Shown here: positions 5,880-27,130 of the stretch, one piece after another
Position numbering within the stretch: the stretch's first letter is position 1
Layout of the letters: each line of letters begins with the position of its first letter
Source: Thermoleophilaceae bacterium
Lineage (GTDB): Bacteria; Actinomycetota; Thermoleophilia; Solirubrobacterales; JACPNS01
Length of the DNA: 64,000 nt
NCBI GenBank assembly: GCA_016462645.1
Contig: JAEMSX010000008.1
Coordinates: forward strand, 1-64,000
Reading direction: 5' to 3'
Made by a program: the position numbers and the translations under genes
The notes under the pieces: generated by a model
What the model was told of the DNA's origin: nothing
The model's input: the letters and a program-made list of their open reading frames with translations, nothing else
Databases searched by the model: none

Positions 5880-8800
5880 AACCAACGTCGTAGAAGAGGT
5901 TGTAGGACCGGTCAACCGCTCGCGCACTGCATGCCGAGAGCGGCCCGAAGTGATACCAGGAGCCTCCCCGAACGACCCGTTCATCGAGACTGTCCGCGTC
6001 CAGACGCTTTGCGTCGAACTCCGGGTCGAATGGAAGGAACAGGGTCGCCGTCCATTCCCAGACGTTGCCAGCCATATCGGCTGGCCCGCCGGGCCACGGT
6101 TCCAGATGGATGCCAACTGTCGCTGGGTTTCGAAGATTGAGGGTGTTGGTGGTGACCAGGGCGCGCTCCTCATCCCAATCGTCGCCCCAAGGAAAAATCC
6201 GATCGTCGTCGGTCGGGCGAGCAGCGAGCTCCCACTCGAACTCGCTCGGGAGCACCGCAACACGGTCCTTGGCCAACGTGCCGTCCTGATGACCGCGGGC
6301 CGTCGCCCATCGGCAAAATGCCTCAGCTTCCCAAAAGTTGATGCCAACCACTGGTTGGTTGGCACGGTTGAAGCGCGAATCGTCCCAATAGAAGGGCGCC
6401 TGGCGGGGCGCTGTCCGCCTTGTAGCCTCAACCTGGAGGCGAGCGGGATCAATCTCGCCGTCGCGGATCTCCTTGGCGTGGTGTTCGTGGACGGTCTTGA
6501 GCCAGTCGCCTCGGATCTCGTCTAGCGTCCGCGAGTCTCCCCGCACCCACCTGAGGGCGCGGGGAGCCAGCCAGTAGTCACTGTTCGAGTATCCGTCGCC
6601 CTCGACAAAGGCACGGAACTCCGCATTCGTCACGGGATACCGCCCGATCTCGAACCCGTCCGTTTCCAAAGTGCGCGGCGGCCCAACGAACCCGCCCGTA
6701 GTCTCCGCCTCGGTAAGTTTCGTCGTACCAACTTGGCGCTCGCCCGCCTGAACGTGGACAAGATGCACGTACGGCGGACGGATCTCGCCCTCGGGTGTCA
6801 CGAACCGTTGATCCCCCAAAGCGGCGAGAGCTTCACCTGCTCGCTCTCGCTCCGGCAGCGTGATCTCGGGGTCTTCGACCTGCTGCTGCATCGCACCGCG
6901 GGCGTCCTCCCAGAGTCCCGCATCTTCCGGATCCAACCCCACGTCGAGGACGTAGCCGAAGTCCCAAAGTGCGAGGCGTTGACGACTGATCTCAGCGAGC
7001 ATCTCAGCGCCAAGTTGGGACGCGGCTGTGCTCTCGCTCGCCACAAGGTCCTCAACGAGGTTCAGAATGTTCGCGAGGTTGTCACCGTTGTGTCCAGCGA
7101 AGCTCGCCATGAGGCGGAACGGCTCACGCCAGTGCACTGAGGCGCCTCGATCGACAGCACTTCTCCGGTCTCGCCCTCCGCCTCTCGCGTAGTGCTGTCC
7201 CGCGAGGTACTCCTGAAAGTAGCGGTGCGAGAAGCGGAACCGATCAGGGCCAACCTGAAGTAGCAGGCCGTGACTGTTCTCGAACTGCGTTGCAAGTTTC
7301 TCTGGCGAAGGGGCTGACCTGCCCGCACCCGCACGCTCAAGTGCGCCAACGATCCGTCCGGCCTCGGTCGCGACCAACTCACGGGTGATGCCCTCATTGG
7401 AACTGGAGGCGCCCTCCTCAGCCGCGTGACTCCGGAACGCCACCTCCACAGCGAGTCTGACGATCGGCCCTGAAGCTTCACTCCCAGAACCGGGCTCCCT
7501 CTCGCGCCACGGAGGCGTTTCGGCGAGCATGAACTTGATCGCCTGGTCGCACACGACCGACCGGGAATCTGGGAGTTCTTGTTTCGAATGGATCAGAGTC
7601 AGCAAGGCCAGCAGGAGCGGCAGCTCCGCCATTTCCGAAATGGCGGGACGGTTCCGCAGCTCGTGCTGGAGGGCTTCACAGAGTTGCTGAGCCAAGTCTG
7701 CGCGGAACCCACCAGCCCGAGCTGCTGCTGCGTACCACTGAGACACGTACGAGTCCTTCTCGTCCGCACTCAGCGGGAGCAACTCAAGTTCGCGCTGGAT
7801 CGGCACCTTCCGACTTGGCTCGCTTTGCCGATAGTCGAAACTCCGGCACGTCACAACGACGCGGCACCCGTTTCGGATACCCAAGACGCCTGAGACTGAT
7901 TGGCGAACCGCGTCAAGATTGTGTTCCTTCACCTCATCGAGGCCGTCAAGAAGCAAGAGCGCTCGACCGTCATGGATCGCGCCTTCCAAGATGTTCAGAA
8001 GATCCACCTGCGCGTGGCGCCCGCCTCGGCTCTTCGCGGCTTCAACTTCTGGGACACCGCTAAGGAGATTCTCTTCGGGGGTGTCCCTTGGGTCGGGAAC
8101 GACGGTCCCCAGATTCACCCAGATGGGCAGGAGCCCGTCGTGGCCGTTTCCCGCGGCACGCGCAGCGAGCATCGCGACCGATGTGGACTTGCCGGCACCG
8201 GGCTCGCCTAGAACGATCAGAGGTTCATTCGAACCTTCCACAAGCTCAAGAAGATCGGTGCCGAGGTCAGCCATCGACTCGTGCGTTCCGATGTTTCCCG
8301 ATCTCTCCTGCGAGTCAGCTGCTCGGAGGGGGGTCCAGATGTCCTCAAGGGTGACGAAGTCATCGGCCAGCTCGCTGGCAGTCCAGGATGTCGGGTTTCC
8401 AAACGCGAGCGTGATGCCGCGCTTCTGGATGTCTCGTAGATAGGCCGCGAGTAGCGGTGTGCTTGCGGGTGACCCGGCAGTCCGGCGCGTCACCTCGACT
8501 TCGAGCTCATCGCGCTTCTCGAGAAGGCGTTCGTGCCGCAGCCTAAACTCGATGAAGAGGCTCGCCACGCGCTCCACGTCCCGGAAGGGCTCGGCGGGGT
8601 CGGCAATCCAGATCGCCTCAAGTGCGCGGCATTCGTCCAGCAAGTCGCGAACCTCGTCTTCAGGCAGCCGCTGAACCTCGTGCGCCGCGACGAGCAGTGT
8701 CCTGGCCCGCTTGTCGAAGTAGAGAATGTCGACCTCGTCGGGATCCACCTCGAGGCAGTACTGCTTGCGGGCAATCGGCCACCCGTCATCACCCCGCAGC

Positions 8801-9045
8801 CGAGCCAGCGGCGTCTGGATGGCGCTGTCGGAGGCCCAGTCAAGATCGTTCTGGTCGTACATGGCGTGTCGGAGGGTCTCCTTGGAGACGTTGCGGCCCG
8901 CATGCAAGGCAAGAACGACAAGAGCGTGCAGCTTCTTTGCTGCCGTTGGCACCGTGCCGACCGTCGAGGTGAACGTTCCTGCAAGGAACCTGAGCCTGAA
9001 CTGCAACTCGCCCCCGCCTGCTCCCCCCTCGTAGGCCATGGTCAA
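5830..9045 (-). CDS. SARP-NACHT-FGE fusion: STAND-type regulator/sensor
   Basis: A 1071-residue three-part protein. Residues 15-100 are an OmpR/SARP winged helix (AAKKLHALVVLALHAGRNVS, then SAIQTPLARLRG) and 100-190 a BTAD-like helical part (VDPDEVDILYFDKRAR). Residues 270-620 form a NACHT NTPase: Walker A VLGEPGAGKST (about 278), Walker B LLLLDGLDE (about 363), and the FSHRYFQEYLAG motif typical of STAND proteins (about 605). Residues 755-1065 are an FGE/sulfatase-modifying-factor-like domain (GRYPVTNAEF, MAGNVWEWT, VVRGGSWYHF, VGFRIAVV). SARP-STAND fusions such as AfsR control secondary metabolism, and NACHT proteins also act in phage defence. Here it ends a metabolic operon, overlapping the gene before it by four bases, with SARP-like repeats in the operon promoter. 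Autogenous control with ligand sensing by the FGE-like domain is inferred. Confidence 0.88.
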   Translation of the reverse strand: MTMAYEGGAGGGELQFRLRFLAGTFTSTVGTVPTAAKKLHALVVLALHAGRNVSKETLRHAMYDQNDLDWASDSAIQTPLARLRGDDGWPIARKQYCLEVDPDEVDILYFDKRARTLLVAAHEVQRLPEDEVRDLLDECRALEAIWIADPAEPFRDVERVASLFIEFRLRHERLLEKRDELEVEVTRRTAGSPASTPLLAAYLRDIQKRGITLAFGNPTSWTASELADDFVTLEDIWTPLRAADSQERSGNIGTHESMADLGTDLLELVEGSNEPLIVLGEPGAGKSTSVAMLAARAAGNGHDGLLPIWVNLGTVVPDPRDTPEENLLSGVPEVEAAKSRGGRHAQVDLLNILEGAIHDGRALLLLDGLDEVKEHNLDAVRQSVSGVLGIRNGCRVVVTCRSFDYRQSEPSRKVPIQRELELLPLSADEKDSYVSQWYAAAARAGGFRADLAQQLCEALQHELRNRPAISEMAELPLLLALLTLIHSKQELPDSRSVVCDQAIKFMLAETPPWREREPGSGSEASGPIVRLAVEVAFRSHAAEEGASSSNEGITRELVATEAGRIVGALERAGAGRSAPSPEKLATQFENSHGLLLQVGPDRFRFSHRYFQEYLAGQHYARGGGRDRRSAVDRGASVHWREPFRLMASFAGHNGDNLANILNLVEDLVASESTAASQLGAEMLAEISRQRLALWDFGYVLDVGLDPEDAGLWEDARGAMQQQVEDPEITLPERERAGEALAALGDQRFVTPEGEIRPPYVHLVHVQAGERQVGTTKLTEAETTGGFVGPPRTLETDGFEIGRYPVTNAEFRAFVEGDGYSNSDYWLAPRALRWVRGDSRTLDEIRGDWLKTVHEHHAKEIRDGEIDPARLQVEATRRTAPRQAPFYWDDSRFNRANQPVVGINFWEAEAFCRWATARGHQDGTLAKDRVAVLPSEFEWELAARPTDDDRIFPWGDDWDEERALVTTNTLNLRNPATVGIHLEPWPGGPADMAGNVWEWTATLFLPFDPEFDAKRLDADSLDERVVRGGSWYHFGPLSACSARAVDRSYNLFYDVGFRIAVVGRGARRAGCS

Positions 9046-10034
9046 AGTATGCCGTTCCCGCTCGTGCGAAGGATCGGATTGAACTCACTCAAAGGCCCCG
9101 CCAGGTCCGAGGCCGCTTGAAGATCGCGGTAGCACTCGAAGACCATCTGACGTGCCATCAGGCGCAACGAATCAAGTCCCAGCCCGAAGTCGAAGTCGGT
9201 GCAGGCCTCAAGGACGACGAGCCCAGGATGGAGCCGGCGAAGTGGAGTGAGGATCTCGCCTTCGATCGCCTGACGCGCAGTTGCAAGGTTGGCGTCTGAA
9301 CCGTCAATGCACGCGAGCACAGCCTCATCGACGATCGCCTGCTGGAGCTCAGTCAGAAGGATGATGTTCATACCTCTCGGGCCACCAAGCCTTCGGTACT
9401 GCTCATTGGCCATAGCCGCTCCAAGAACCACGAACGGTCGGCCGTCAAGCATGCCGGTCCTCTCGAGCTGACCGATCGTGGAGTGAACGACCCCGTGCGC
9501 GGTCAGTTCAGGAACGGCATCGTCAGAGATTGGCTCGTAGTCCACCGACTCCGCAGCTGCCTTGAACGCCCTTGCCTCGCCCGCCACGCGTACGGCGTCA
9601 CCCAAAGTTTCAGACAACGCGTTGCATGGGAGAGCGACACGAACACGACCGTGCCCCCTCCGCATCGCCAGCACCGCCTCGTCGTGAATGACACACGCGA
9701 AACGCGCGACCATGTCTGAAGGAATGTCGTGCGCCTTAACCGCTACGAGAACTTCGTCTGTCAAGCGCCCCTGCTCGGCCCAAACCCGTTGAACTGTCAC
9801 GCGCTTCAAGTAAGCCACGTCGCCGATGTGGCCGAACATGATGCGGCGATACTCGTCCAGGAACGGCAGGTCCTGCGTTGCGAGGAGCCGCGTCAGGAAC
9901 GCACGCTCTTCCTCGGCCATGATGGCGAGGTATCGGGTTGCGGCCTCCCTGCCGAAGTCTCCTACGACAACGTCGAAGAGCGTCGGCAGATCCCTGAGCT
10001 GGTCAAGGAGGCCGTTGGGTCCGTTCATCGTCAC
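9042..10034 (-). CDS. Aspartate/glutamate racemase-like protein
   Basis: A 330-residue protein whose C-terminal two thirds resembles cofactor-independent Asp/Glu racemases. It has one catalytic-Cys-like motif, ALPCNALSE (Cys about 137), and a second, LEACTDFDFG (Cys about 278), at the spacing expected for the PCN and GCT motifs. About 100 extra N-terminal residues have no recognised domain, making it longer than the usual 230-250. It overlaps RidA upstream and the SARP-NACHT gene downstream by four bases each. It would supply or consume a D-amino acid for the neighbouring oxidase. The match is by motif only, so another racemase-fold isomerase is possible. Confidence 0.6.
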   Translation of the reverse strand: MTMNGPNGLLDQLRDLPTLFDVVVGDFGREAATRYLAIMAEEERAFLTRLLATQDLPFLDEYRRIMFGHIGDVAYLKRVTVQRVWAEQGRLTDEVLVAVKAHDIPSDMVARFACVIHDEAVLAMRRGHGRVRVALPCNALSETLGDAVRVAGEARAFKAAAESVDYEPISDDAVPELTAHGVVHSTIGQLERTGMLDGRPFVVLGAAMANEQYRRLGGPRGMNIILLTELQQAIVDEAVLACIDGSDANLATARQAIEGEILTPLRRLHPGLVVLEACTDFDFGLGLDSLRLMARQMVFECYRDLQAASDLAGPLSEFNPILRTSGNGIL

Positions 10035-10480
10035 TGCCTCAGCGCGAGGACCAGTTCGACCTCAACTGCCCAATCTCCGGGAAGAACCATGCCCACTGCC
10101 GAGCGTGCGTGGGACGGTTGCCCGTCGAAGACCGAGTTAAGGAAATCTGTGGCGCCATTGATGACCGATGACGTGTCGTTGAAGCCGGGTGCCACGTTCA
10201 CCATGCCGACGAGCTTCGCGACACGTTCGATCTCGTCCGCGTCGGCCACTGCAAGCGCCGCCCGTAGGCAATTGACAGCGCACACCTCCGCGGCCTTCTG
10301 TGCGGTTGCGAGGTCGATGTCGTCTCCCACCTTTCCCTTGATCGCCACGTCTCCGAGGCTCGGGATCTGGCCAGAAGTGAATATGAGAGAGCCAACCCTC
10401 GTGGCCGCGTGGAAGCTCAAGACCTGGAGCGGAGCCGGCGACAGGTCGTAGCCGAGCTTCCTAGCAATGTTGAGGTCCAT
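10031..10480 (-). CDS. RidA/YjgF family imine deaminase
   Basis: A 149-residue RidA-family protein (Rid/YER057c/UK114). The FTSGQIP segment near the N terminus and the conserved Arg in SHARSAVGMVLPG with the following VEVELVLAL are typical of active members. RidA enzymes hydrolyse reactive enamine/imine intermediates to ketoacids and ammonia, protecting PLP enzymes. That fits its place between an FAD amino-acid oxidase, which makes imines, and the racemase, in an operon that also holds a PLP aminotransferase. It starts about 30 bases after the oxidase stop, with AAGGAG upstream, and overlaps the racemase-like gene by four bases. Confidence 0.88.
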   Translation of the reverse strand: MDLNIARKLGYDLSPAPLQVLSFHAATRVGSLIFTSGQIPSLGDVAIKGKVGDDIDLATAQKAAEVCAVNCLRAALAVADADEIERVAKLVGMVNVAPGFNDTSSVINGATDFLNSVFDGQPSHARSAVGMVLPGDWAVEVELVLALRQ

Positions 10481-10511: not shown

Positions 10512-11645
10512 CTACTTGATGGCTGCTAATCCCGTTCGACCGATCGAACAGGCCTCCCACGGAATCTCGGGGGTTTCCAGGCCCAGAACTGAGTCAGCGA
10601 GCATGCGGCCGCCCGCGGGGCTGTGCATGATTCCTTCGCCACCCCACCCGCAGGTGTTGAAGAATCCCTCAACGGTTGGAACGGGCCCGACGATCGGAAG
10701 AATGTCGGGGGTCAGCGGCCGAACCCCGGAGGTACCGGACACAACCCGGGCATCGCGAAACGCTGGCACCCGTCGTGAGGCGACGCGCTGAACCTCGGCC
10801 CAGAAGGCAAGGTCCGGTTCATCACTTACGCTGCCGTCGGCCTCAAGCCCCATGCCAACCAGCGCGCGACCTCCGCCCAGGCCGCGGAAATACCACTCGA
10901 CGCCGGCCTCTTCGACCATTGGGCCGATCTGGACCTCCGGTGACAAGCACTCGACGAAGAACAATGATCGCCGAAGGTTGTCGATCGGCAGGTCGACGCC
11001 CACCCAAGAAGCGACCGCCGCGGCATTCCCGCCTGCCGCGTTCACAACGATGTCGCACGCTACGCGAGACGACGACGTGAATACGGACCGGACTCGACCT
11101 CCGTGAACCTCAATCCCCGTCGCAACCTCGCCGGTGTGAATCTCTGCACCAAGGCGCTGGGCCCCCGTCAAGTAAGAGCGGACAAGTTGGTCTGGGTCGA
11201 TGACCGCATCGTCAGGACCGAGCACCCCGAACTCGATCCCGTCCGTTTCAACTGCTGGCGAAAGCTCGCGGATGGCGCCAGGATCGACCAGCTCTGACGG
11301 AACCCCCATCTCAAGACGAAGCTCATGCTCTGCCTTGTAACGGTCGACCAAGTCCGGCGGAACCAAGCTAAGGAAGCCGATCCGGTTGAAGTTGAGGGGC
11401 TCCCCGAAGCGCTTCTCAAATCCCAAGAGCCAGTCATAGGAGTACTTCGACAACGCGATCTTCGTGCGGTTCTCGCGTGACTTCATCAGCATGGAGCCGG
11501 ACCGACCGGACGATCCCCGCCCCGGGGCGCCGAGCTCTTCGAGGAGGAGGATGCGCGCAATACCTGCCTCGGCGAGGTGGTAGGCCGCGCTCGTACCCTG
11601 CACACCCGCTCCGATGATGATCGCTTCGTACCCTGCGTCAGTCAT
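10512..11645 (-). CDS. FAD-dependent amino-acid/amine oxidase (DAO family)
   Basis: A 377-residue flavoprotein of the D-amino-acid oxidase/sarcosine oxidase family. The N-terminal dinucleotide fold is IIIGAGVQGTSAAYHLAEAG. Near the C terminus are RPLTPDILPIVGP and a GWGGEGIMHSPA glycine-rich flavin-contact segment. Family members oxidise secondary or D-amines to imines, passing electrons to oxygen. It overlaps the upstream aminotransferase by four bases. With RidA and a racemase-like protein next door, a D- or N-substituted amino acid is a likely substrate, the imine being hydrolysed by RidA. The exact substrate cannot be told from sequence. Confidence 0.85.
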   Translation of the reverse strand: MTDAGYEAIIIGAGVQGTSAAYHLAEAGIARILLLEELGAPGRGSSGRSGSMLMKSRENRTKIALSKYSYDWLLGFEKRFGEPLNFNRIGFLSLVPPDLVDRYKAEHELRLEMGVPSELVDPGAIRELSPAVETDGIEFGVLGPDDAVIDPDQLVRSYLTGAQRLGAEIHTGEVATGIEVHGGRVRSVFTSSSRVACDIVVNAAGGNAAAVASWVGVDLPIDNLRRSLFFVECLSPEVQIGPMVEEAGVEWYFRGLGGGRALVGMGLEADGSVSDEPDLAFWAEVQRVASRRVPAFRDARVVSGTSGVRPLTPDILPIVGPVPTVEGFFNTCGWGGEGIMHSPAGGRMLADSVLGLETPEIPWEACSIGRTGLAAIK

Positions 11646-12787
11646 CTCGATACCTCCTTCAGCCGTCCAACGATGTCGTCAAGTACGGACCCCGACAGTG
11701 CGGCGTAGCTGAGCCGCAAATGGCCCGTGTCGCCTGCGGCGAAGTACGACCCCGGCACCGTGAGAACGCCGACGTCAGACGCGACGCGCTTGGCCGCTTC
11801 CTCATCGGTCATGCCGACGAAGGGGTGCTTCAACCAAGCAAAGAAGCCACCCCACGACTGCACCTCGAAGCCGGTATTCGCGAGTGCAAGCCGTTCGACG
11901 AAGCGTTCACCCTTCAGCCGGATGTCGTCGGCGAGCGCACCCCGCCAGTCGGTCAGATGCGCCAACGCGAACTCGGCGAACGCCTGTCCGGGCGAAGGCG
12001 CAACGATGGAGATGCAGTCGTGCCACTTGGCCGCAGCCTCCAACACTCGCTGGCCTCCGATGGCGGCACCAACTCTGTAGCCAGGGATGGAAAACTCCTT
12101 CGACATGCTGCGGAGCGAAATGAAGTGGTTGCGCCATTCGTCGTTGGCAAAGAGTCGATGGGGAGGACGGCTGGGGTTGCGGCGGACGAATGCATAGGTC
12201 TCGTCCAGGATGAACGGAATCTCGTAGCGCCGACAGGCCGACGCGATCAGTTCTATGGACTTACCTGAGAGCTCGAGACCCGTTGGGTTGCCGGGGCTCA
12301 CTGCGCAGATCGCAGCGGCTCGCTCGGTCGCAGCCAGGAGAGCCTTCCCATCAACCCTTCCGTCTCCGGACAGAGTCAGGTAGATCGGCTCAATGCCGTT
12401 GAGTTTCAGCCACATGTCGTGGTTGAAGTAGTAGGGACTCAGGAGGACGACGCTGTCCCCCGGCGCCACGAGGGCACGGGTGACCACACAGAAGGCCTCG
12501 TTACAGCCCGCAGTTACCAGCACGTCTTCCGGAGTGATTTCGGTTGTTCCGTACTGGATGCAAAGGTCCTCAGCGATGGCTTCGCGGAGAGACGCGGCCC
12601 CCCATCGTGGGCCATAGTGCTCCGATCCTTCTTCCAAGCCGACCTTGTCCTGAGGAGGTGTCGCACCGCTGGTGCCTTGGCTTGCGTCGATCACCGCCAA
12701 GGATCCGGTGTAGTCCTTTCCCCAAGAAAGAGCCTGTGAGATCGGCGGAACAACAACGTCGCCACCGAGAGTGCGGAGGGTGGTCAT
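11642..12787 (-). CDS. Class I/II PLP-dependent aminotransferase
   Basis: A 381-residue fold-type I aminotransferase. It has the SPGNPTG loop (about 164-170), Asp about 194 in FILDETY, which binds the PLP nitrogen, and the Schiff-base Lys about 230 in SMSKEFSIPGYRVG. The start overlaps the methyltransferase stop by four bases and the stop overlaps the oxidase start by four. A methyltransferase-aminotransferase pair recalls the 3-methylarginine route, in which a 2-ketoacid is C-methylated and then re-aminated. That role is inferred from context. Confidence 0.88.
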   Translation of the reverse strand: MTTLRTLGGDVVVPPISQALSWGKDYTGSLAVIDASQGTSGATPPQDKVGLEEGSEHYGPRWGAASLREAIAEDLCIQYGTTEITPEDVLVTAGCNEAFCVVTRALVAPGDSVVLLSPYYFNHDMWLKLNGIEPIYLTLSGDGRVDGKALLAATERAAAICAVSPGNPTGLELSGKSIELIASACRRYEIPFILDETYAFVRRNPSRPPHRLFANDEWRNHFISLRSMSKEFSIPGYRVGAAIGGQRVLEAAAKWHDCISIVAPSPGQAFAEFALAHLTDWRGALADDIRLKGERFVERLALANTGFEVQSWGGFFAWLKHPFVGMTDEEAAKRVASDVGVLTVPGSYFAAGDTGHLRLSYAALSGSVLDDIVGRLKEVSR

Positions 12788-13824
12788 CGCGACGACGCCC
12801 TCGCGCCCCGTCGAAGGAGGTGCCCGAACTTGATCCCAAGTGGGTCGTAAGTCGGGTTCGGGAAGACTTCTCTGACCACCTCTACGCCGGCCTCGTCGTA
12901 GATCGCCTTCCAGTCTTCGACCGGCAGCAACCGCTGCTCCGTGAGCCGGTGGATCAGGAAGTAGGGGTTGTAGTAGCCCAAGGCGAGATCGGACGGTTCC
13001 GTAGAAAGCGGGTGCCGGCGGTCGACCTCGATCACCACCCAGGTTGCCTCAGGGTCTGCATCGAAGGTCCGCTGGAGTAGGCCGACTACCGCGGCACGGC
13101 CGGACTGCTCCAAGACCTCTTGAAGCACGAAGGCGGTGATATAGCACGTGCCGGGCGGAAGCCCTTGGGCTTCTGTTGGGATGTGCAGCGCGTCGCCAGC
13201 AAGAATTTTCAGGTTCGCAAGGCCCCGCCGTGCCGCCGCGACCTCCGCCACCTTCCTGGCGCCCTCGTCCGGCTCGATGCCGAATGCGGGAACGTCTGTG
13301 AACGCGGCGGCGATCTCAGACACGAACGTCCCGTCACCGCAACCAAGATCGACCACAGCCGACGGACTCGTTCCCGAGCGCATTAGCTCAAGAACCATCG
13401 GGAGCGCATCGTGGTCACTGATCCCACAGCTACCAATGGCGACGTGAGCGCCATCTCGCCTGGCATAGGGAGCCCCAGCCTTGAGCGTCCCTGGAAGTTG
13501 CGCGAACGTGCCGGCATACCCACCGACGAGGAGCTCGTACCACGGACGCACCGTCGACAGCTCGCGTCCTCGATCGGTCAATGCGGCACGGGCGCCACGT
13601 TGCTCGATGAGCCCCTCGTTCTCCAGATACTCCAACAAGCCGCTCAGACGCTCGGGATGAAGGCCGAGTGTGTGCTCGAGTTCCGTGGTCTGCTTGGGGC
13701 CGTCGGCTAGGGCGTCGATGAGTCCAACCTGAAACGCCGCGAAGATGGCATGCGCGAGAGCAAGCCCGCGAATCGGCTGGAGGTGGGCGGCCAGCACCCC
13801 TTCCGACAACTCGCCACCACTCAT
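12784..13824 (-). CDS. SAM-dependent C-methyltransferase, possibly 2-ketoarginine-methyltransferase-like
   Basis: A 346-residue class I methyltransferase. An N-terminal dimerisation/winged-helix part (LQPIRGLALAHAIFAAF, about 15-90) is followed by SAM motif I VVDLGCGDGTF (about 157-167) and an FGIEPDEGARK acidic loop. The layout and the opening segment recall MrsA-type 2-ketoarginine methyltransferases, from memory, but O-methyltransferases share the same two-domain plan. It is the first gene of the six-gene operon, and its start ATG lies about 100 bases downstream of the CTTGC direct repeats. With the aminotransferase directly downstream, methylation of a 2-ketoacid at the beta carbon is the favoured role. 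Confidence 0.8.
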   Translation of the reverse strand: MSGGELSEGVLAAHLQPIRGLALAHAIFAAFQVGLIDALADGPKQTTELEHTLGLHPERLSGLLEYLENEGLIEQRGARAALTDRGRELSTVRPWYELLVGGYAGTFAQLPGTLKAGAPYARRDGAHVAIGSCGISDHDALPMVLELMRSGTSPSAVVDLGCGDGTFVSEIAAAFTDVPAFGIEPDEGARKVAEVAAARRGLANLKILAGDALHIPTEAQGLPPGTCYITAFVLQEVLEQSGRAAVVGLLQRTFDADPEATWVVIEVDRRHPLSTEPSDLALGYYNPYFLIHRLTEQRLLPVEDWKAIYDEAGVEVVREVFPNPTYDPLGIKFGHLLRRGARASSR

Positions 13825-13923
13825 GATCTGTCCCCCTGTAGGCGTTGCGATCGCCCGTCGATGCCCCGTTCAGACTGGCGAGATCGCCGATCCCAGCCAT
13901 GCTCACGATCCTGATCGACTTCT

Positions 13924-13961
13924 CTTGCCCCCACCTTGCAGCGACCTTGCACCTAGCTTGC
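13924..13961 (-). promoter_or_regulatory. SARP-type operator: four direct repeats at 11-bp spacing
   Basis: CTTGC (GCAAG on the coding strand of the operon) occurs at 13924, 13935, 13946 and 13957, exactly 11 bases apart. The middle two extend to ACCTTGCA. Short direct repeats in phase with the helix are the known site form for SARP/OmpR-type activators. They lie 100-140 bases upstream of the methyltransferase start, and the last gene of the operon carries a SARP domain. A further dyad, GGCGA-GA-TCGCC (13877-13888), lies between the repeats and the gene. No convincing -10 could be fixed. Function is inferred. Confidence 0.6.
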
Positions 13962-14134: not shown

Positions 14135-14419
14135 ATGAAGGCAACAACCGCACATTGGCCGGCCGAGCCACTCAGAACACATCCGGCCCCTGATCCCCCG
14201 ACACCGACACCGACGACAACCGCGCTTGCCGTGCGTGAGCCGATCGCGTACGTCTTCGAACTCTCGCGATTCGGCGTTCTGGTCGGCGGCGGCGTGGTCA
14301 TCGCGCCATCCAGCACAGCGGCAAAGCGCACAGCGGAACTCGCCCTGGCTGGTGGAGCCGACGTACGCATCGTCGAACCCACAGGACCGCCGTCGAAGCC
14401 GCAGAAGAGCACGGCCTGA
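14135..14419 (+). CDS. Small hypothetical protein, divergent from the SARP-NACHT operon
   Basis: A 94-residue protein. An AGGAGG Shine-Dalgarno lies four bases before the ATG, and a TTG one codon earlier is less likely. The N-terminal third is Pro/Thr-rich. The rest (FELSRFGVLVGGGVVIAP, then AELALAGGADVRIVEP) looks like a short alpha/beta fold. No family is recognised. It shares the 310-base intergenic region with the methyltransferase gene, so it could be co-regulated by the repeats there. Confidence 0.6.
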   Translation: MKATTAHWPAEPLRTHPAPDPPTPTPTTTALAVREPIAYVFELSRFGVLVGGGVVIAPSSTAAKRTAELALAGGADVRIVEPTGPPSKPQKSTA

Positions 14420-14489: not shown

Positions 14490-14690
14490 ATGTTCACCAT
14501 TGCCGCTCCGTCGCTTGCACACTCAGTGACCACATCCGCAACCGGTTCGCTGCTACAGGCGACCGATGCCCTGATGCAGAGACTGGCTGACCTGCCCGAG
14601 ATCGAGACCGACGAGATGCTCACGGGGGCCTTGGCGGTGAGCGCGCTGAACGCCAGGGCCGTGCTCGATTGCTACTTCAAGTGCACCTAG
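14490..14690 (+). CDS. Small hypothetical protein
   Basis: A 66-residue frame starting MFTIAAPSLAHSVTTSATGS, with GAAGGA nine bases upstream. It is rich in Ala, Leu and Thr and mostly helical in look (LLQATDALMQRLADLPEIE). It follows the previous small gene by 70 bases on the same strand, and its stop overlaps the 3' end of the convergent AAA ATPase by four bases. No family is recognised. A longer reading of this frame upstream overlaps the 94-residue gene and is unlikely. Confidence 0.5.
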   Translation: MFTIAAPSLAHSVTTSATGSLLQATDALMQRLADLPEIETDEMLTGALAVSALNARAVLDCYFKCT

Positions 14691-17275
14691 GCTGCCGCGT
14701 CTAGGTAGGCCTTCCGGGCGTCTTGGAGCTCCTGCCAGTGCGCCTCCAGCCCCGTGAGCGTAGGCGAGACGCCGAGCGTGGGCAGAGGCTGTGAGTGCCC
14801 GGGGATAAAGCGGCAGGCATCCTCGAAGACGCGGGTAACCACCTCTGAGGCCGTGGGCAGAGCGCCAGCCTTGATGTTGCTGAGCGTGGTCATCCGGATG
14901 TTCGGCTGGTACCGCTGAGACACGCCGGCCAGCAGTTCGGTCTCGGTAAAGACCTCACACCACGACCGGATCCAGTCGTAACCCTCTCGGACCAACGCTG
15001 CACGAGCTTCCCCGTCGACGGCGCGAGCTGCCTCAACTGTCTTGTTGATGCTCGTCTTGAGGTTGCCGAGGGTGTCCCAGCGTGGGCCAGAGGCCCGTGT
15101 GACCTTGCCTTTGCCGTCCTCGTCGGTGATCTGGAAGTAGGTGCATCGCCTCGACGTCTCGAACAGCGACAGCAGCGTCGCCGCGAAGAAGATGTCGTGG
15201 GTGAAGACGATGACCTGGTTGTCGTCGGCGAGGCTCGCGATGCGCCGAGCCACCTCGTTGATGCGTCGGTGATCAAGGCTGGAGACCGGGTCGTCGAAGA
15301 TGACCGGCGCTGTGATGCCTGCGAGCCGTGCCTCCGCCAGGAAGTCTGCGAGGGCAAGCACCTTCTGCTCTCCCTCGGAGAGGACCTTTGACGGCTTGTG
15401 TCTACCTCCGAGCATCTTGCGTCGTTGAGCACGTCCCTGGCGTCCGACAAACTCGACCTTCAACTCGGGAGCGCGCAGAGCCTTGCATTCTTCCGCGAAG
15501 AGCCGGTCGAAGTTCTGGTTGATGAGCTGGTCGCTGGCGACCTTGGCGAGCTCCGTTACAGACCGTCCTAGCGCGGTGAACTTCGCACCGAGAACTCGGA
15601 GCTTGTCAGCCTCCTTGGCGCGCTCGACTTGCGCCTGGATCGTCGGCCAAGACTTACCCAACTCCCCCGCGGCTGTCAGTTCGGCTAGCTCTCGCCTCTT
15701 GTCGCGGAGGGCGTCAGACCGGTTCGCCGACTGCATCTTGAGCTCCGTGATGTCGTCGGCAGTAGCCGTGAGAGACACCGTCAACTCAGCCCCGATCGCA
15801 GGCACGTTCGCCACCGCGGAGTCGTCGATCGATTCGCCCGACCGAATCGCCGTGGTTACTAAAGCGACTGTTGCACGGATCGCAGCGACGTTGGCGTAGG
15901 CGGATGGCTTGTCCTCGCGACCTTCATGCTCGTCCACGAAAGCAGCGACGTCGGGCAACGCGACAGCCAGGATCGGGGCAGTGAGACCACCGATGTTCTC
16001 CTCGACCGAGGCGATGTCCAAACTGATCCTGTCGGTCAGGTACTCGCTGTACTTGGCGACCAGTGCCTGCGCAGAGTCGGATAGTGGCTGACGGCAGTAG
16101 AGGCACCTGCCCGAGTCATGAACACCCAGCGCCTCTAGATGCGACCGGTACGCGTCGCCACTTGTCACGAAGTCGTCCCACGTCTCCTCGGGATCGGCCG
16201 GCAAATCCGCAGCGGCGAACAGATCGGAGCGGAAGGTTCGGTAGTCCTGTTGAAGCTCAGTGAGCCGCGCACTTAGGGAGCTGAGTTCCTCCACATTCAG
16301 GCCTTCAAGCGTGGCAGCGGCGGCGGCTGCCTGGCGGAGCACACGTTCGCTGCGCTGCCGCTCTGAGATCTGTGCGTCCAGAGTGTCCGCTTCGAGCGCC
16401 GCAACCGCACGGCGAAGAACATCCACCCGGTGATCGACATCGGACCCTCGCTCGGCGCGCGCATCAAGTGCTGCCAAGTCGGTGGATGCTCCAAGCGTCT
16501 CTACGAGCGCGTAGATCGTCGATTCTCGCGGAAAACGGCTCAACAAAGTCGTCGAGCCGGCACCGAGATCACGGATCGCGACGTCGACTCGGTCGTGGAC
16601 ACCCTTGAGCGCGATATTCACGTGGTTGAACAGCGCGAGGACGGTCGGAACGTAGACGTACTCCAAGTCGTCATCGACGTGAAAGTTCACGGCGGGGCTG
16701 TCAAAAATGGACATGCGAGTGAAGGGGGCAACGCCCTGCTCCCCTGACCAGCTCAGGGTCTTGGCGTCCGGCCCGACGGTGTACCCAACCTTGGCAGTTT
16801 GCGCGACCTCCTCTGTGACTGCAATGTTCCCGAGGATCGTGTCGGCCGTGCGGCTTCCGGCCAGCGCCTTGAAGATGCGGGAGTAGCCCGTCTTTCCAGT
16901 GCCGTTCTCGCCGAACAGGATGGTCATGCCGGCGTGAGGCTCGATGACCGAGCCCGGAACGATCGCGTTGATTCCCGTCACTTCCGAGAGTTTGGTGACT
17001 GCCAGAGGAAGTTCGGCATCCTCCTCCGTGGCCTCGACGGCCAGATCCGGCTCGACTGGCAGAGTGCGCTCGTCTAGCCCCTTCTCCTGTCGAAAGAGCG
17101 CGTACGCCCAGTCGAGCTCGTCGTCCGGCAATGCCCGGCCGGAACTGAGCACTCGTCTGACGACCGCTCGGACCCACTCGTCGTTTGCGTTTGCCCACGC
17201 CGCGAGAACCTCGCGCGGGTCCAGGACGGCTGAGCCCTGCGGATCCCCCTCGATTGGGCCTGCTTCCTCGGTCAC
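14687..17275 (-). CDS. RloC/PrrC-type AAA ATPase with zinc-hook-like CxxC
   Basis: An 862-residue SMC/ABC-like ATPase. Walker A is LFGENGTGKTGYSR (about 118), followed by long heptad-rich coiled-coil arms. A CLYCRQPL CxxC sits between the arms like a Rad50 zinc hook. Then come the LSEGEQKVLALADF signature, Walker B APVIFDDPVSSLDH and a VIVFTHD switch. This plan is shared by RloC/PrrC anticodon nucleases, which guard restriction systems. I cannot make out a definite nuclease triad in the C-terminal 100 residues. It is last in the type III restriction operon, ten bases after Res. A back-up effector triggered when restriction fails is the favoured role. Confidence 0.8.
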   Translation of the reverse strand: MTEEAGPIEGDPQGSAVLDPREVLAAWANANDEWVRAVVRRVLSSGRALPDDELDWAYALFRQEKGLDERTLPVEPDLAVEATEEDAELPLAVTKLSEVTGINAIVPGSVIEPHAGMTILFGENGTGKTGYSRIFKALAGSRTADTILGNIAVTEEVAQTAKVGYTVGPDAKTLSWSGEQGVAPFTRMSIFDSPAVNFHVDDDLEYVYVPTVLALFNHVNIALKGVHDRVDVAIRDLGAGSTTLLSRFPRESTIYALVETLGASTDLAALDARAERGSDVDHRVDVLRRAVAALEADTLDAQISERQRSERVLRQAAAAAATLEGLNVEELSSLSARLTELQQDYRTFRSDLFAAADLPADPEETWDDFVTSGDAYRSHLEALGVHDSGRCLYCRQPLSDSAQALVAKYSEYLTDRISLDIASVEENIGGLTAPILAVALPDVAAFVDEHEGREDKPSAYANVAAIRATVALVTTAIRSGESIDDSAVANVPAIGAELTVSLTATADDITELKMQSANRSDALRDKRRELAELTAAGELGKSWPTIQAQVERAKEADKLRVLGAKFTALGRSVTELAKVASDQLINQNFDRLFAEECKALRAPELKVEFVGRQGRAQRRKMLGGRHKPSKVLSEGEQKVLALADFLAEARLAGITAPVIFDDPVSSLDHRRINEVARRIASLADDNQVIVFTHDIFFAATLLSLFETSRRCTYFQITDEDGKGKVTRASGPRWDTLGNLKTSINKTVEAARAVDGEARAALVREGYDWIRSWCEVFTETELLAGVSQRYQPNIRMTTLSNIKAGALPTASEVVTRVFEDACRFIPGHSQPLPTLGVSPTLTGLEAHWQELQDARKAYLDAAA

Positions 17276-17285
17276 TGTTGTTCTC

Positions 17286-20200
17286 CTACGCCGTCACGAG
17301 TTGCATAAGTTCCGTGTAGTTGGTGACCACGTCATACTTGATTCCGGGGGTATCCGCAGCGTCGTTCAACTTCTTGAACAGCTTCCGTGCGCATTCGATC
17401 TTCGCCTTCTCCGCCCCGCGGAGCTCCAGGGATGAGAGTGAACCCTTCGTCTCTGCCACGAAGTAGACGTGCTTGATCGACCCCTTCTTGAAGGCGATCG
17501 CCCAATCGGGGTTGTAGTCGTCGAGCGGGGTCGGAATCTTGAAGCCTCGCGGAAGCTTCGTGTAGACGACAACCTCGTCGCTGACATCCAACGCGGCGCC
17601 GAAGGCGCGCTCGACCTCTGAGTCATCGAGGACGTACTCATAGACGTTCCGATTCGGAGTATGGACCGCCTTGGACAGGTCCTGGGCAGTCTGGTTCTCG
17701 GTGAAGATGGACGAGTCATATCGGTCATCGAGCAGGTCGTACTCGATGTGCTCGACGACCGCCGCGGCCTTCTGCTCATTGATGAGACGAGATGCCTCGG
17801 TGATGAACTGCTCCGGGTTCTGCTTGAACTTCGCGAAGGTGTCCGGCCTCACCCCCTGCAAGATCGCCGCGCACGTCCGGCGGGTGAGGTTCGTCTTCTC
17901 GGCGATCTCGCCGAGGAGGTCGTAGGGCACGGTCGAGCTCGCGCTGAGCGATGACTCCTCGGTCTTCGTACGGGCGACCTTGAAGCTCTCGCCCGATTCC
18001 AGGTGCTCGGCCTCGACGACGTCGCGCTGGATGCCCTGCACGACGACGTACTGGAGACGCGCGACCTGAAGTGAGGTGTCAAGGACGCGAACGCAGTTGA
18101 TGATCAGTTCTTGCGAGTCGAAGTCGACCTGGTAGACAACCCGGCGGCTGATCCGGTTCCAGAGTTCCTGGAACTCTTTCTTGCTGAAGTTCGCCTGGTT
18201 CATTGGGATGACCTGCCCCTTGCGACCGTTGTCCACCTTCGGCGCCTGAACGTGCAGTGAGTCGATCAGCTCGACGACCTGGTTGACGAACGGCTGGAGC
18301 GCAGTGGGCATCTCCGGAATCTCTGAGAGGCCTGTCCGGCCGATCCACTTTTCAGTGAGCTGTTGGTCGTAGTCGATGAAGTCATGCTTGATGAGCCAGT
18401 GTTGAAGCTGCTTCGCTTCATCGAGAGTGACCTTGTGCTCGGCGCCAGCGGCCATGTCCAGAAGGACAGCGCCGAAGAAGTAGTCGGGCGTCGCCTTGCG
18501 TGGCCGTGAGCTGAGCAGGCGCAAGGTCTCGTCCTGAAAACCCTTGACGAAGTCGAGGTACGACTCCTCCGTGACGACTGTCAGGACGTTGATGTCGTGG
18601 ACGGTAACGGGGTTGTCGGTACGCTCGCCGTTCTGGTCGACGGCCAGCCGCAAGCCGCGGCCCACCTCTTGTCGACGAGAGTCGCCGGGCGTGGCCTTCT
18701 TCAAGAAGCCAAGGGTGAATACGTTCGGGTTGTCCCAACCCTCACGAAGAGCCGAGTGGCTGAAGATGAAGCGGAGCGGGTAGTCACGGTCGAGCAGCTT
18801 CTCCTTGTCTCGGAGGATTGCGTCATACGCCTCAGCATCTCTGGACGTGCCCTGCTTCTCGTCCGACGCATCCGACGAGTCGCTGTCCACCCAACGGCCT
18901 GTCTTCTTGTCGATCGAGAAGTAGCCGTTGTGGACATCTCGCACAGCGTCGCGTTCGAGGAAGTTTCGGTACGCCCCCGTTCCGTCGAGGTCCAACTCCG
19001 CGAGCTTCTCCACTCGGAGCGCCTCGTACTCCTCTTCGAATACCTGCGCATAGGCACCGAGCCGATCGGGCTGGTCGTAGTCGCGGTATCTCACGACCTC
19101 GTCGATGAAGAAGAGCGACAGGACCTTGATGCCGCGGCCAAAGAGCTGTTGCTCCTTCTCTAGATGGGCTCGGATGACCTCGCGGATCTGAAGACGTCGT
19201 TTCTGCTCGTCGGTGACGTCGTTGGTGACCTGACCGCCTTGCAGTGTCTGACCGTCCAGCAACGTCACGGTGTTTGAGATGGCGTCGATGTCGTCGATGA
19301 CGAGTCCCTTGTATGCCTCGATACCGCCGGACAGATCATGCAGGCGTGAGCCTTGCTGCACCTTCAGGGTCTTGCGGACGATGGGGCCACCCTTCGTCTG
19401 CACCTCGAGCTCGACTCGTGCCTTCGGGAAGTCCGCGCCCTTACCGAGTTCGAGCCCGTCCACGTACAGATACGCGCTGCTTCCCGCCAGTCCCTTGACG
19501 CTGATACCGCGGGCGGCGATCTTCTTCACAAGCTTCTTGTTGTAGGCATCAAGAGCATCGAGGCGGTGGACCTTGTTGTGCTCGATGGCGTGTGTCGCCG
19601 AGTAGCGAAGCGCAAACAGGGCGTTGAACTTCCCGAGAGCCTTGAGGGTCTCGCTCGGCTTCTTGGGGTTGCTGCCAAGGCGCTGGGGCTCGTCAATGAT
19701 CAGGATTGGCCGGTTCGCCGCGATCACATCGATTGGTCGGCGGGACCTGAAACCGTCCAGGGTCTTGAACATCTTGAGTCCAGTGGCCTTGCCTTTGCCC
19801 TCGACGTCGGTGTCGGCCTTCTTCGCATCGCGATTGAAGTTCTGAGCGTTGATGATCATGACCTGCACGCCGTCGTCGGAGGAGAATGTTTCGACCTCCT
19901 CCAGGTGATCAGAGTCGTAAACGAAGGCACGCGCCTGGGATTTGTACTCTGCGAGGAAGTGGTCGGCAGTGATCTCGAACGACTTCTTCACGCCTTCGCG
20001 TATGGCTACGCTGGGAACGACGACCACGTACTTCGACCAGCCGAAGTGGCGGTGCAGTTCCATGATCGTCTTGATGTAGACATAGGTCTTGCCTGTACCA
20101 GTCTCCATCTCGACATCGAGATTGAGTCCCGCAGCTGGACTTGCAATCAGATCCGTCGACAGGGGCAAGCCGCTCGTACGTCGCTGGACCGCGTGAACGT

Positions 20201-20435
20201 TTTCGAGAATTTGGTCGGGTCCAAGGAGAAGTTGGCTGTTGCCGTAACCAGTGGCGCTGGCACTTCCATCCACCCCGAGGGCGAACTCTCGTTGTGCAGA
20301 TCGGGCCGCGCGACCGGGGTCGATCTTATACGTGATGTTGTCGGCGAAAGGCTGTCGATGCCGAGCGCGGAAGCAGTCCACCACGGCTTCGACCGCAACC
20401 GTCTGGAAGTCCTGAACCTTAAACTGAAGCTTCAC
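17286..20435 (-). CDS. Type III restriction endonuclease, Res subunit
   Basis: A 1049-residue SF2 helicase-nuclease. Motif I is METGTGKT (about 110-117), motif II ILIIDEPQRLG, and the C-terminal helicase motifs include SHSALREGWDNPN and QEVGRGLRL. The C-terminal PD-(D/E)xK nuclease reads Asp about 977 (YNPDWAIA), then VAETKG with Glu about 995 and Lys about 997. All parts appear intact and the length is normal for Res. It translocates along DNA and cuts near unmodified sites together with Mod, encoded two bases upstream. Confidence 0.92.
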   Translation of the reverse strand: MKLQFKVQDFQTVAVEAVVDCFRARHRQPFADNITYKIDPGRAARSAQREFALGVDGSASATGYGNSQLLLGPDQILENVHAVQRRTSGLPLSTDLIASPAAGLNLDVEMETGTGKTYVYIKTIMELHRHFGWSKYVVVVPSVAIREGVKKSFEITADHFLAEYKSQARAFVYDSDHLEEVETFSSDDGVQVMIINAQNFNRDAKKADTDVEGKGKATGLKMFKTLDGFRSRRPIDVIAANRPILIIDEPQRLGSNPKKPSETLKALGKFNALFALRYSATHAIEHNKVHRLDALDAYNKKLVKKIAARGISVKGLAGSSAYLYVDGLELGKGADFPKARVELEVQTKGGPIVRKTLKVQQGSRLHDLSGGIEAYKGLVIDDIDAISNTVTLLDGQTLQGGQVTNDVTDEQKRRLQIREVIRAHLEKEQQLFGRGIKVLSLFFIDEVVRYRDYDQPDRLGAYAQVFEEEYEALRVEKLAELDLDGTGAYRNFLERDAVRDVHNGYFSIDKKTGRWVDSDSSDASDEKQGTSRDAEAYDAILRDKEKLLDRDYPLRFIFSHSALREGWDNPNVFTLGFLKKATPGDSRRQEVGRGLRLAVDQNGERTDNPVTVHDINVLTVVTEESYLDFVKGFQDETLRLLSSRPRKATPDYFFGAVLLDMAAGAEHKVTLDEAKQLQHWLIKHDFIDYDQQLTEKWIGRTGLSEIPEMPTALQPFVNQVVELIDSLHVQAPKVDNGRKGQVIPMNQANFSKKEFQELWNRISRRVVYQVDFDSQELIINCVRVLDTSLQVARLQYVVVQGIQRDVVEAEHLESGESFKVARTKTEESSLSASSTVPYDLLGEIAEKTNLTRRTCAAILQGVRPDTFAKFKQNPEQFITEASRLINEQKAAAVVEHIEYDLLDDRYDSSIFTENQTAQDLSKAVHTPNRNVYEYVLDDSEVERAFGAALDVSDEVVVYTKLPRGFKIPTPLDDYNPDWAIAFKKGSIKHVYFVAETKGSLSSLELRGAEKAKIECARKLFKKLNDAADTPGIKYDVVTNYTELMQLVTA

Positions 20436-20437
20436 GG

Positions 20438-22537
20438 TCAGAGCACCTTGAGGTCGGTGTCAGGTGACAACTGCTCGAAGACCTGGTCAGCGTTGATCCT
20501 CGCTGCGTCAGTCGCGAAGCCAGTGTCCTTAAAGATGGCCTTTAGTGGCTTGCGACTCGCGATTGCGCGAATCAGGTCTTCATCGAGATCGTCCTCGAAG
20601 CAGGCAAGCAGCGCATCGTCGTCCACCGAGAACACCTCGTGGGACTTGACTTGCTCGACGGTGACGGGCGAGCTCAGGTCCATCCCCCAGTCGATGAGCA
20701 CTTCGAAGAGCACGTCTTCGCTAGTGCGATCCGCCTTCAAGCTCTCGGTCAGAAGGTCGAGGGTGTCCTGAGTTGCGGCGTCAGGAGTCGTGGTGACGTC
20801 AGTGAAATTGCTCGTGTCGATCGTGAAGGCGCGGAAGCCGATATCGCCGCTCCAATCAGAGGGCTTGCGACCGGCGGATGCCCGCACGCCGGCCTTCACG
20901 ATCCGGATTTTAGTCAACTCAGCGATCGTCAGCGGCTTGCCGAGCTTGTTCAGGAACTTGAGCGCATTCTGGATCGTCGTCTTTGCCGATCCGGTGGCCG
21001 ACTTGAGGTTGTCCTCCAGATCCTCCGGCAACTGCACGAGGATCACCGGGCAGTTGAGGCCCGTGCGGGCGCACACGTCGAAGACCGCCTCCGCAGTCGT
21101 TCCTGATCCGGCGAAGAAGTCCATGACGATGCCGCCCTTCCCGTTCAGGACGTATTCGAAGAGGCGTGAGAGTTCGGCGTGGTCCTTGGGATTGTTGAAC
21201 ACCTTCGCCCCCATCAGGGCGCGGAGATGCTTCACGGCCACCTGCGACTGCTTGTAGAAGTAGGTTCCGCGGACCTGCGTAGCGAGCTCCGCCTCGCCGT
21301 CCGCCCCTTCGGCCTCGTCGTATTCCAGCTCCTCGACGTCGGCGTTCTCACCCTCAACTGGGCGAAGGTGCGCCTTGCGGAATGGTGTGGCGGTGGGGTC
21401 GTCCTCTCTGAACACGACCAGCCCGAGTTTGATCTGACGCTTCATCTCCTCGGGGTTGCTGTAGCGCCACCCCGCTTCCGGAACGGTGACCGCCTGCCCC
21501 GTAGCCGGGTTGATCACGTCGTAGGACGGGCCGTCGCCGCCCGGCCACGAGATGTCGCGGTCACGCCACGGCCCGTTGGCGTCGACCCGCTTGTACCGTG
21601 CCCACTTCTTCGAGGGGTTGCTCTTGGGTAGGGACGCAAACCACGCCGAGAGGTCCTTCTCGATGGCGGCATCGTCGGCTCCGTGCAACTCGCGGAGACG
21701 GAGGTACTCGTCCCAAATCTCCCGGGCGCCGGGCTTCTCCTCGCGCCAAGCCGTCTTTCGCTCCCGCAGAGTCGACTTCGACTTGGCGTAGACCATGACG
21801 TACTCATGACCGCTAGAGAAGAACTTCGCGTCGTTCTTCCGGCCCTTCTCCCATACGACTTGAGCGATGAAGTTCTGCTCGCCGAAAACCTCATCCATGA
21901 GCCGCCGGAGAGATGCTTGCTCGGCGTCGTCGATGCTGACGAGGATGACCCCGTCTTGGGCAAGGAAGCGCTTCGCGAGCCGGAGCCGGGGGTAGATCAT
22001 GCTCAGCCAGTCGGAGTGGAAGCGGCCATTCGCCTCCGTGTTCGCCTTCAGTCGCTCGCCCGCCTCGTTGACCTGGTTCGAGTTCCACAGGTATTCCTGC
22101 TTCGAGGTCGCAAAGTCATCGCGATAGACGAGGTCACCGCCGGTGTTGTACGGCGGGTCGATGTAGATCAGCCGCACCTTTCCGAGGTACGACTCCTGAA
22201 GGAGCTTCAGGGCCTCAAGGTTGTCGCCTTCGATGAAAAGGTTCTTCGTGGTGTCGAAGTCGACTGAGTCTGACCGGCTCGGACGGAGCGTCTTCGAGAT
22301 CGGGGCGTTAGACGCGAATTCGGCGGCCAGCTTGCCGGGCCAGTCGATCTGGTAGGCCTCCTTCGCACCGTCGACGACGTAGTCGCTCAGCTCCTGCCGG
22401 AGCGCTTCGAAGTCGACCCCATGCACGACGTGTCCGTCGTCGTCGCGGCTCTCCGTGATGACCTCTGGGAAGAGCGCGGCGATGGCCTCGACGTTCTTCG
22501 CCGTCACGTCAGCAGACTGCAGGTCTAGTTTCTCCAT
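20438..22537 (-). CDS. Type III DNA methyltransferase, Mod subunit
   Basis: A 699-residue adenine-specific methyltransferase of the beta order. The catalytic IDPPYNTGG comes first (about 126-134), a long target-recognition stretch follows, and the SAM-binding DFFAGSGTT is at about 475. An acidic insert (ENADVEELEYDEAEGADGEA) lies in the variable region. Mod sets the recognition sequence and protects host DNA. It sits between DUF4391 and Res in the defence operon. The start ATG lies nine bases after the DUF4391 stop and is preceded by GAGAGGAAACG. Confidence 0.92.
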   Translation of the reverse strand: MEKLDLQSADVTAKNVEAIAALFPEVITESRDDDGHVVHGVDFEALRQELSDYVVDGAKEAYQIDWPGKLAAEFASNAPISKTLRPSRSDSVDFDTTKNLFIEGDNLEALKLLQESYLGKVRLIYIDPPYNTGGDLVYRDDFATSKQEYLWNSNQVNEAGERLKANTEANGRFHSDWLSMIYPRLRLAKRFLAQDGVILVSIDDAEQASLRRLMDEVFGEQNFIAQVVWEKGRKNDAKFFSSGHEYVMVYAKSKSTLRERKTAWREEKPGAREIWDEYLRLRELHGADDAAIEKDLSAWFASLPKSNPSKKWARYKRVDANGPWRDRDISWPGGDGPSYDVINPATGQAVTVPEAGWRYSNPEEMKRQIKLGLVVFREDDPTATPFRKAHLRPVEGENADVEELEYDEAEGADGEAELATQVRGTYFYKQSQVAVKHLRALMGAKVFNNPKDHAELSRLFEYVLNGKGGIVMDFFAGSGTTAEAVFDVCARTGLNCPVILVQLPEDLEDNLKSATGSAKTTIQNALKFLNKLGKPLTIAELTKIRIVKAGVRASAGRKPSDWSGDIGFRAFTIDTSNFTDVTTTPDAATQDTLDLLTESLKADRTSEDVLFEVLIDWGMDLSSPVTVEQVKSHEVFSVDDDALLACFEDDLDEDLIRAIASRKPLKAIFKDTGFATDAARINADQVFEQLSPDTDLKVL

Positions 22538-22546
22538 CGTTTCCTC

Positions 22547-23212
22547 TCACATCAGATCCGCGAGTGCGGTCTGTCGCTCCTTCAGCCGTCGGCGCAACTC
22601 GATCTTCCGATTCAACTGCCGCTCATTGCGAAGCTTTCGCTCCAAGGCAGCGACCTCGCGCTGGAGCGACCGGACAGCGGTGACTCTGTCGACTACCTCC
22701 GACACAGTGTCGCCCACGCGTGATGCGACGGGGGTCAGTGGTTGCAGAAGTGCCGTGTACAGGCTCGTCAGATCGATGGCTGTCGGAAGCGAGACTCGTT
22801 CGCCAGACGCGGGTTGCCAGTCGGTGCTGAAGTAAGGGCCGAGCCTCGGCGCACCGGTACTGATCTGCTTGTGAGCAGCGACCATGCGGGTGGTTCCATC
22901 AGAGCCCTCCCCTCTGCTGATCTCGAAGACGATCGGCGTGCGAACCGCCTTGTCGATCGCAGCGAGCACCCCCTCCGCGACGTCATCCCCCTTGGCGCGG
23001 ATCTGGAAGACCTGAATCTCGGGGACTTCAAGGCTGCCCTGGAGGTTGACCGTGGACTCGGCAAGTTTGTAGGCCCAGGTGATCTGTCGTACGTCAGAAA
23101 CGAAGCGGTCCTTGACCGTTGGTCCGAGACTGGTGTGTTCGTAGAACTTGGTTTTTGGCACGACCCGTCCGAACTCCGCAACTTTCGGCCACCGGTAGAG
23201 AAGCGCCGTCAT
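22547..23212 (-). CDS. DUF4391 family protein
   Basis: A 221-residue protein matching DUF4391: it opens MTALLYRWPKVAEFGRVVPK, and FEISRGEGSDGTTRMV lies in the middle. The last 60 residues form a charged coiled coil (REVAALERKLRNERQLNRKI). The family occurs almost only beside PLD-SNF2 helicases and type III-like methylase/restriction genes. Its function is unknown, and the central part may be nuclease-like or structural. The start overlaps the helicase stop by four bases (ATGA), so the two are coupled. Confidence 0.85.
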   Translation of the reverse strand: MTALLYRWPKVAEFGRVVPKTKFYEHTSLGPTVKDRFVSDVRQITWAYKLAESTVNLQGSLEVPEIQVFQIRAKGDDVAEGVLAAIDKAVRTPIVFEISRGEGSDGTTRMVAAHKQISTGAPRLGPYFSTDWQPASGERVSLPTAIDLTSLYTALLQPLTPVASRVGDTVSEVVDRVTAVRSLQREVAALERKLRNERQLNRKIELRRRLKERQTALADLM

Positions 23213-26953: not shown

Positions 26954-27130
26954 CGTGTCCTTCTTCCTGGAGTCGTTGCCTCCGCTTCGGCGGTGGACCC
27001 GGTGTCCTCCGCGTTGAGCCCACGATGTCCTTGGCCGATTGCGGCGGGCTCGCACGGCGCTTGCGCTCGGCATGCAGACGGTGACGATCTTAGAAATGTC
27101 GAGGGTCGCGAGCCCACGGCTCTCCACCCC

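Follow-up and report, generated by a model that had tools for sequence, protein, structure and literature searches.

Bacterial NACHT proteins are mostly discussed as receptors that set off killing or arrest. Among the closest described counterparts of the locus presented here are the SARP regulators and their operators. In SARP promoters the direct repeats are spaced by 11 or 22 bp, and the 3' repeat is located 8 bp from the -10 element; the afs box of AfsR has two repeats, extends from -40 to -19 and overlaps the -35 element; and within AfsR itself NOD and TPR hold the SARP part in check, an inhibition that is lifted by ATP binding (PMC10936776). The operator of PimR was defined by footprinting as three CGGCAAG heptamers, separated by 4-bp spacers and read on the target's coding strand, the same heptamer is common to the SanG and PolR operators, and adding a fourth heptamer to the PimR site gave no substantial gain in output (PMC3367932, PMC5930380).

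Here we describe a NACHT protein, designated P0001, that is joined to a SARP-like DNA-binding part and whose own operon is preceded by a candidate site; its sole known counterpart, which lacks the SARP-like part, also lacks the site within the limits tested. Such a NACHT switch with a transcriptional output would be testable using a single protein domain together with a short DNA probe. The features of the locus are collected in Table 1, with positions numbered in the window, by which we mean the whole 64,000-nucleotide stretch of DNA that was analysed.

Table 1. Features of the leftward operon and its upstream region in the window
Feature	Coordinates	Strand	Basis or remark
Operator-like array	13924..13961	-	GCAAG at 13961-13957, 13950-13946, 13939-13935 and 13928-13924
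Putative -10 element CAGGAT	13908..13913	-	Predicted; starts 10 nt past the last GCAAG
Gene 1, methyltransferase like 2-ketoarginine methyltransferase	12784..13824	-	TIGR04543, 326 bits, below the cut-off of 425
Gene 2, PLP-dependent aminotransferase	11642..12787	-	PF00155
Gene 3, FAD-dependent oxidoreductase (DAO family)	10512..11645	-	PF01266, E 1.3e-62
Gene 4, RidA-like protein	10031..10480	-	PF01042, 28 bits, barely above cut-off
Gene 5, P0002, without family match	9042..10034	-	Aligned with plasmid homologue
Gene 6, P0001, SARP-like winged helix + NACHT + FGE-sulfatase, 1071 aa	5830..9045	-	Pfam, hhalign
Winged-helix DNA-binding region of P0001, residues 29-115	8701..8961	-	hhalign

The array lies in a divergent intergenic region, 100 nt from the first gene of the leftward operon (start 13824). 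On the plus strand CTTGC starts at 13924, 13935, 13946 and 13957, with a period of exactly 11, one turn of the helix, and zero mismatches. No other 5-mer recurs four times in this manner anywhere in the 64-kb window, whatever the period tried (7 to 40). An earlier note on this DNA had reported four CTTGC repeats at exact 11-base spacing upstream of the operon, an observation confirmed here and strengthened by the absence of any four-copy 5-mer run from 120 Markov-simulated windows (60 of order 1 and 60 of order 3). The exact four-copy pattern has a single match in the 2.65-Mb genome from which the window comes (2,647,188 bases searched, 82% complete), and exact matches to three copies were confined to the array, with one match for the reversed control. 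When up to 3 mismatches to the four-copy pattern were allowed, two extra sites appeared, at 27038-27075 and 32113-32150, against one for the reversed control. Both are on the same contig as the array, and the former is upstream of a small ORF and of a helicase gene starting at 26664. The 6-nt spacers of the array differ from one another and the 5-mer alone is invariant, which makes it improbable that the array arose by a recent tandem duplication of 11 bp.

On the minus strand, which also codes for the leftward operon, the repeated word is GCAAG. The array has in common with the PimR, SanG and PolR operators an 11-bp period, a GCAAG core and, with P0001 as the putative reader, a regulator with an ATPase part, and it shares with the PimR site, for which the orientation is shown, the placement of the repeats on the coding strand of the target. 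That 11-base spacing is a known form of SARP sites, as had been claimed, is likewise borne out by the published 11-bp direct repeats (PMC10936776). The four units agree with the CGGCAAG heptamer at 5, 5, 6 and 6 of 7 positions, GCAAG being complete in all four, so that, unlike in PimR, SanG and PolR, the first two bases of the heptamer mostly do not agree. Other differences from these systems are the copy number (four here, two for SanG and PolR, three for PimR), the position, since the PimR site stands clear of the -35, some 58 nt ahead of the start site, whereas the array would overlap the -35, and the target, which is pimM for PimR and would be its own operon for P0001.

Within 60 nt downstream of the array, CAGGAT is the sole hexamer with A at position 2, T at position 6 and at least five of six matches to TA[GT][AG][AG]T, a combination with a background of 0.32% per position. 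The gap between the last unit and this predicted element is 10 nt when counted from GCAAG and 8 nt when the unit is framed as GCAAGNN. With the predicted CAGGAT set at -12 to -7, the last two NNGCAAG units would occupy -29 to -23 and -40 to -34, a phase like that of the two repeats of the AfsR box. In the plus direction, the nearest equally good -10-like hexamer is 55 nt away. Most probably, the GCAAG array serves the leftward operon as an operator of the SARP type, and we treat it as a candidate for that role.

The operon comprises six genes, from 13824 to 5830, that overlap or nearly touch: the longest ORFs share 4 bp at each of the junctions 1-2, 2-3, 4-5 and 5-6, and a gap of 31 nt separates genes 3 and 4. 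The gene 1 product is 41% identical to an annotated 2-ketoarginine methyltransferase. The aminotransferase of gene 2 scored 311 bits with NCBIfam PRK07550 and 206 bits with GntC, each below cut-off, and has just 24% identity to the aminotransferase of the beta-methylarginine pathway. For P0002, searches of Pfam, the PDB and phage records gave no match, and a single-sequence structure prediction (mean pLDDT 40.5) was too poor for fold comparison. Its PCN and ACTDF motifs, kept in both known copies (window and plasmid, see below), are presumably those of Asp/Glu-racemase-like proteins, which suggests that P0002 may be an unrecognised enzyme of this type. PADLOC 2.0.0 matched the six operon proteins to no described antiphage system and returned partial matches only, among them those of P0001 to PDC-M54A (E 5.7e-4, 32 residues) and of the methyltransferase to mad2 (E 9.2e-11, 66 residues). 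We found no description of this operon in the literature searched, the coverage of which leaves out most subscription journals.

Two Pfam families are above cut-off in P0001, NACHT (PF05729, 46 bits versus 26.7) and FGE-sulfatase; Trans_reg_C, with E 0.022, is below it. Alignment of residues 29-115 by hhalign to three true SARPs, all SARP-ATPase-TPR proteins from the same order, gave a score of 57.4 (E 5.8e-8), against 23.3 for the best of 100 shuffles. In an alignment made by eye, T78, R82 and R84 of P0001 fall at T88, R92 and R94 of AfsR, of which T88 and R92 contact bases, and the position of K95, a conserved phosphate contact, is a glycine in P0001 (PMC10936776). The BTAD domain, the activating half of a SARP, had no Pfam match in P0001, and residues 100-230 did not align with the BTAD of the true SARPs (score 20.5); the VDxxxF stretch that opens the BTAD region is present, and this region of P0001 would be divergent or truncated relative to AfsR. 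The earlier note placed a gene with a SARP domain at the end of the operon; this is supported for the SARP-like winged helix, and for the BTAD half no match was found. A phmmer search of PDB sequences with the P0001 N-terminus had zero matches, and the AlphaFold2 model computed from this sequence alone was not usable (mean pLDDT 37.9). Matches of profile A2 to AfsR and EmbR were set aside, since A2 includes the three true SARPs and its matches are not independent evidence for P0001.

In overall layout P0001 resembles AfsR, with an N-terminal winged helix, a central STAND ATPase and a putative sensor at the end. Where AfsR has NOD-TPR, P0001 has a NACHT and an FGE-sulfatase domain, the latter taking the place of a C-terminal TPR sensor, which was not found; and, unlike AfsR, P0001 is encoded inside the operon that it would control. 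The antiphage NACHT protein EruA (NCBIfam NF058535) has a similar NACHT region, although the match, at 35.7 bits, is far below the cut-off of 1000.

Among genomes, homologues of whole P0001 were confined to the window's own in each of the sets searched (1/232 for the order at E <= 1e-40; 1/399 for the class and 1/396 for the phylum at E <= 1e-60), sets that overlap and for which scoring covered the top 2 or 3 candidates of each genome among the rows listed; in two other classes, 0/66 and 0/36 genomes had one at E <= 1e-50. The methyltransferase was likewise found in 1/5 genomes of the family, the window's own. A genome-contig search with P0001 turned up a single locus, where the match was confined to FGE at 28%, and phages yielded FGE fragments in 2 records; in viral contigs neither P0001, a two-sequence profile nor the methyltransferase had a match.

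Plasmids gave 118 records for P0001, and the best of the 20 listed (80% coverage, 46.8% identity) was NZ_CP123587.1 of Alisedimentitalea scapharcae, the only plasmid matched by P0002. All six genes are present on it and follow each other as they do in the window, with identities to the window from 30% (P0002, the lowest) to 61% (RidA, the highest). Its NACHT-FGE protein is 47% identical to P0001 over 883 aligned positions, starting at P0001 residue 198, and in front of these it has an N-terminal hydrophobic helix, identified by eye, and no SARP-like part. Upstream of this operon no 11-bp triplet was found within the limits tested. Conservation of the array could be judged in this single related operon, where the repeats were not found and the winged helix is absent too; the joint absence, in one comparison across phyla, fits a coupling of domain and site. 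The plasmid operon also differs from the window copy in an extra first gene, WelO5/2OG-Fe(II)-oxygenase-like (L007, 9277-10083). The second of the plasmid matches listed, from Candidatus Thiodictyon syntrophicum (58% coverage, 26.5% identity), has none of the operon's enzymes annotated alongside. This plasmid has two large SUMF1/EgtB/PvdO-annotated proteins near each other (L034, 6255-9713 and 14233-17532), the former of which matches P0001 residues 391-1007 at 26.5%.

To the right of the operon in the window are genes for a PDC-S06-like protein and for type III restriction-modification, and a restriction-modification pair is found upstream of the NZ_CP123587.1 operon; with restriction-modification genes beside each of them, both copies sit among defence genes. 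The island at 14687-26664 consists of the PDC-S06-like AAA protein, the type III restriction and modification genes, a DUF4391 gene and an SNF2-type helicase similar to the HKD+Snf2 and DrmD models. Between it and the array is a small divergent gene (14135-14419, plus strand; about 95 aa) with a strong ribosome-binding site, AAGGAGG, and without family match.

We favour, with moderate confidence, the reading that the array is a SARP-type operator and that P0001, from the last gene of the operon, is its activator, in a positive autoregulation. P0001 is the best single explanation for the reader of the site because of its co-location with the array, the type of its domain and the one contrasting relative. 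In the scheme we propose, the NACHT switch would keep P0001 molecules inactive until a signal read by the C-terminal part releases them; the released molecules would line up on the four repeats along one face of the helix, a set of four tandem units with which a NACHT oligomer would be compatible, and would recruit RNA polymerase. The operon, with its amino-acid-modifying enzymes and P0001, would in this way amplify its own expression. A more far-reaching proposal, which we put forward tentatively and hold to be rather unlikely as a whole, is that this is a mobile defence-island operon in which a NACHT protein, once it senses a signal, acts as a transcription activator at its own four-repeat operator and so drives the synthesis of an effector, a small molecule of the methylated-amino-acid type, and that in the proteobacterial sister a membrane anchor replaces the DNA-binding part. 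If true, the output of an immune-type receptor would be the burst of a biosynthetic pathway.

The spelling of the array alone cannot name P0001 as its reader, because similar arrays occur at unrelated loci. Four-GCAAG arrays with at most 1 mismatch were found in 4/231 other genomes of the order (5/232 with the window's own), more often than arrays of three control 5-mers with identical base composition (GAACG 1/232, ACGAG 0/232, GAGCA 1/232). Outside the window's own genome, the four sites lie at a histidine kinase/response regulator pair, at an MFS/GntR pair, in a gap between sigma factor and MlaD genes and in a convergent gap with a hairpin, and no SARP or NACHT was present among the 16 proteins scanned near them. 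GCAAG arrays thus exist in the order without this operon, perhaps as sites for different SARPs or for regulators of another kind. The first of these sites, between divergent histidine kinase and response-regulator genes in genome G167 (L030, 4188-4250), has five GCAAG at 11 bp, as CGGCAAG or GGGCAAG heptamers with 4-bp spacers.

Direct repeats of 11 bp are also used by other OmpR-type regulators, such as PhoP and PhoB. Together with the arrays at loci free of SARP and NACHT among the proteins scanned, this speaks for an alternative that we regard as appreciably less probable than autoregulation by P0001, namely that the array is a true operator but is read by some other host regulator, either a different SARP or an OmpR-type response regulator, and that the winged helix of P0001 acts elsewhere or is an adaptor only. 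Against it, the array is the sole exact site in its genome, unlike a regulon; four other genomes of the genus have no array at up to 1 mismatch; and no other SARP was found in this genome within the limits of the search, in which BTAD proteins were sought in the 82% complete assembly by a method that misses P0001 too. Speaking against the favoured reading, on the other hand, no GCAAG array was found upstream of the three true SARP genes of the order (L016-L018); two of these regions are without any such array and the third has a GCGCT/CGCTG triplet. The glycine at the AfsR K95 position and the small effect of a fourth heptamer in PimR also count against it. A fourth N-terminal match (L014/L019, E 0.006) was inside a glutamate dehydrogenase and was dropped as chance.

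That the array is a functionless product of chance or the remnant of a tandem repeat seems improbable to us. Slippage can create short periodic repeats, the control 5-mers too gave two matches each in 2/232 genomes, and the one GCAAG array between convergent genes is where a promoter is not expected; yet the simulations produced no four-copy run, an invariant 5-mer with varying spacers is not explained by tandem duplication, and the position, strand and phase to the predicted -10 all fit an operator. Control of the divergent small gene by the array, or control in both directions, can be given very little weight: the site is in the intergenic region that this gene shares with the operon, and the gene has a ribosome-binding site, but in the plus direction the repeats, as CTTGC, have the reverse of the orientation seen in known operators, and a -10-like hexamer is reached only at the 55-nt distance noted above.
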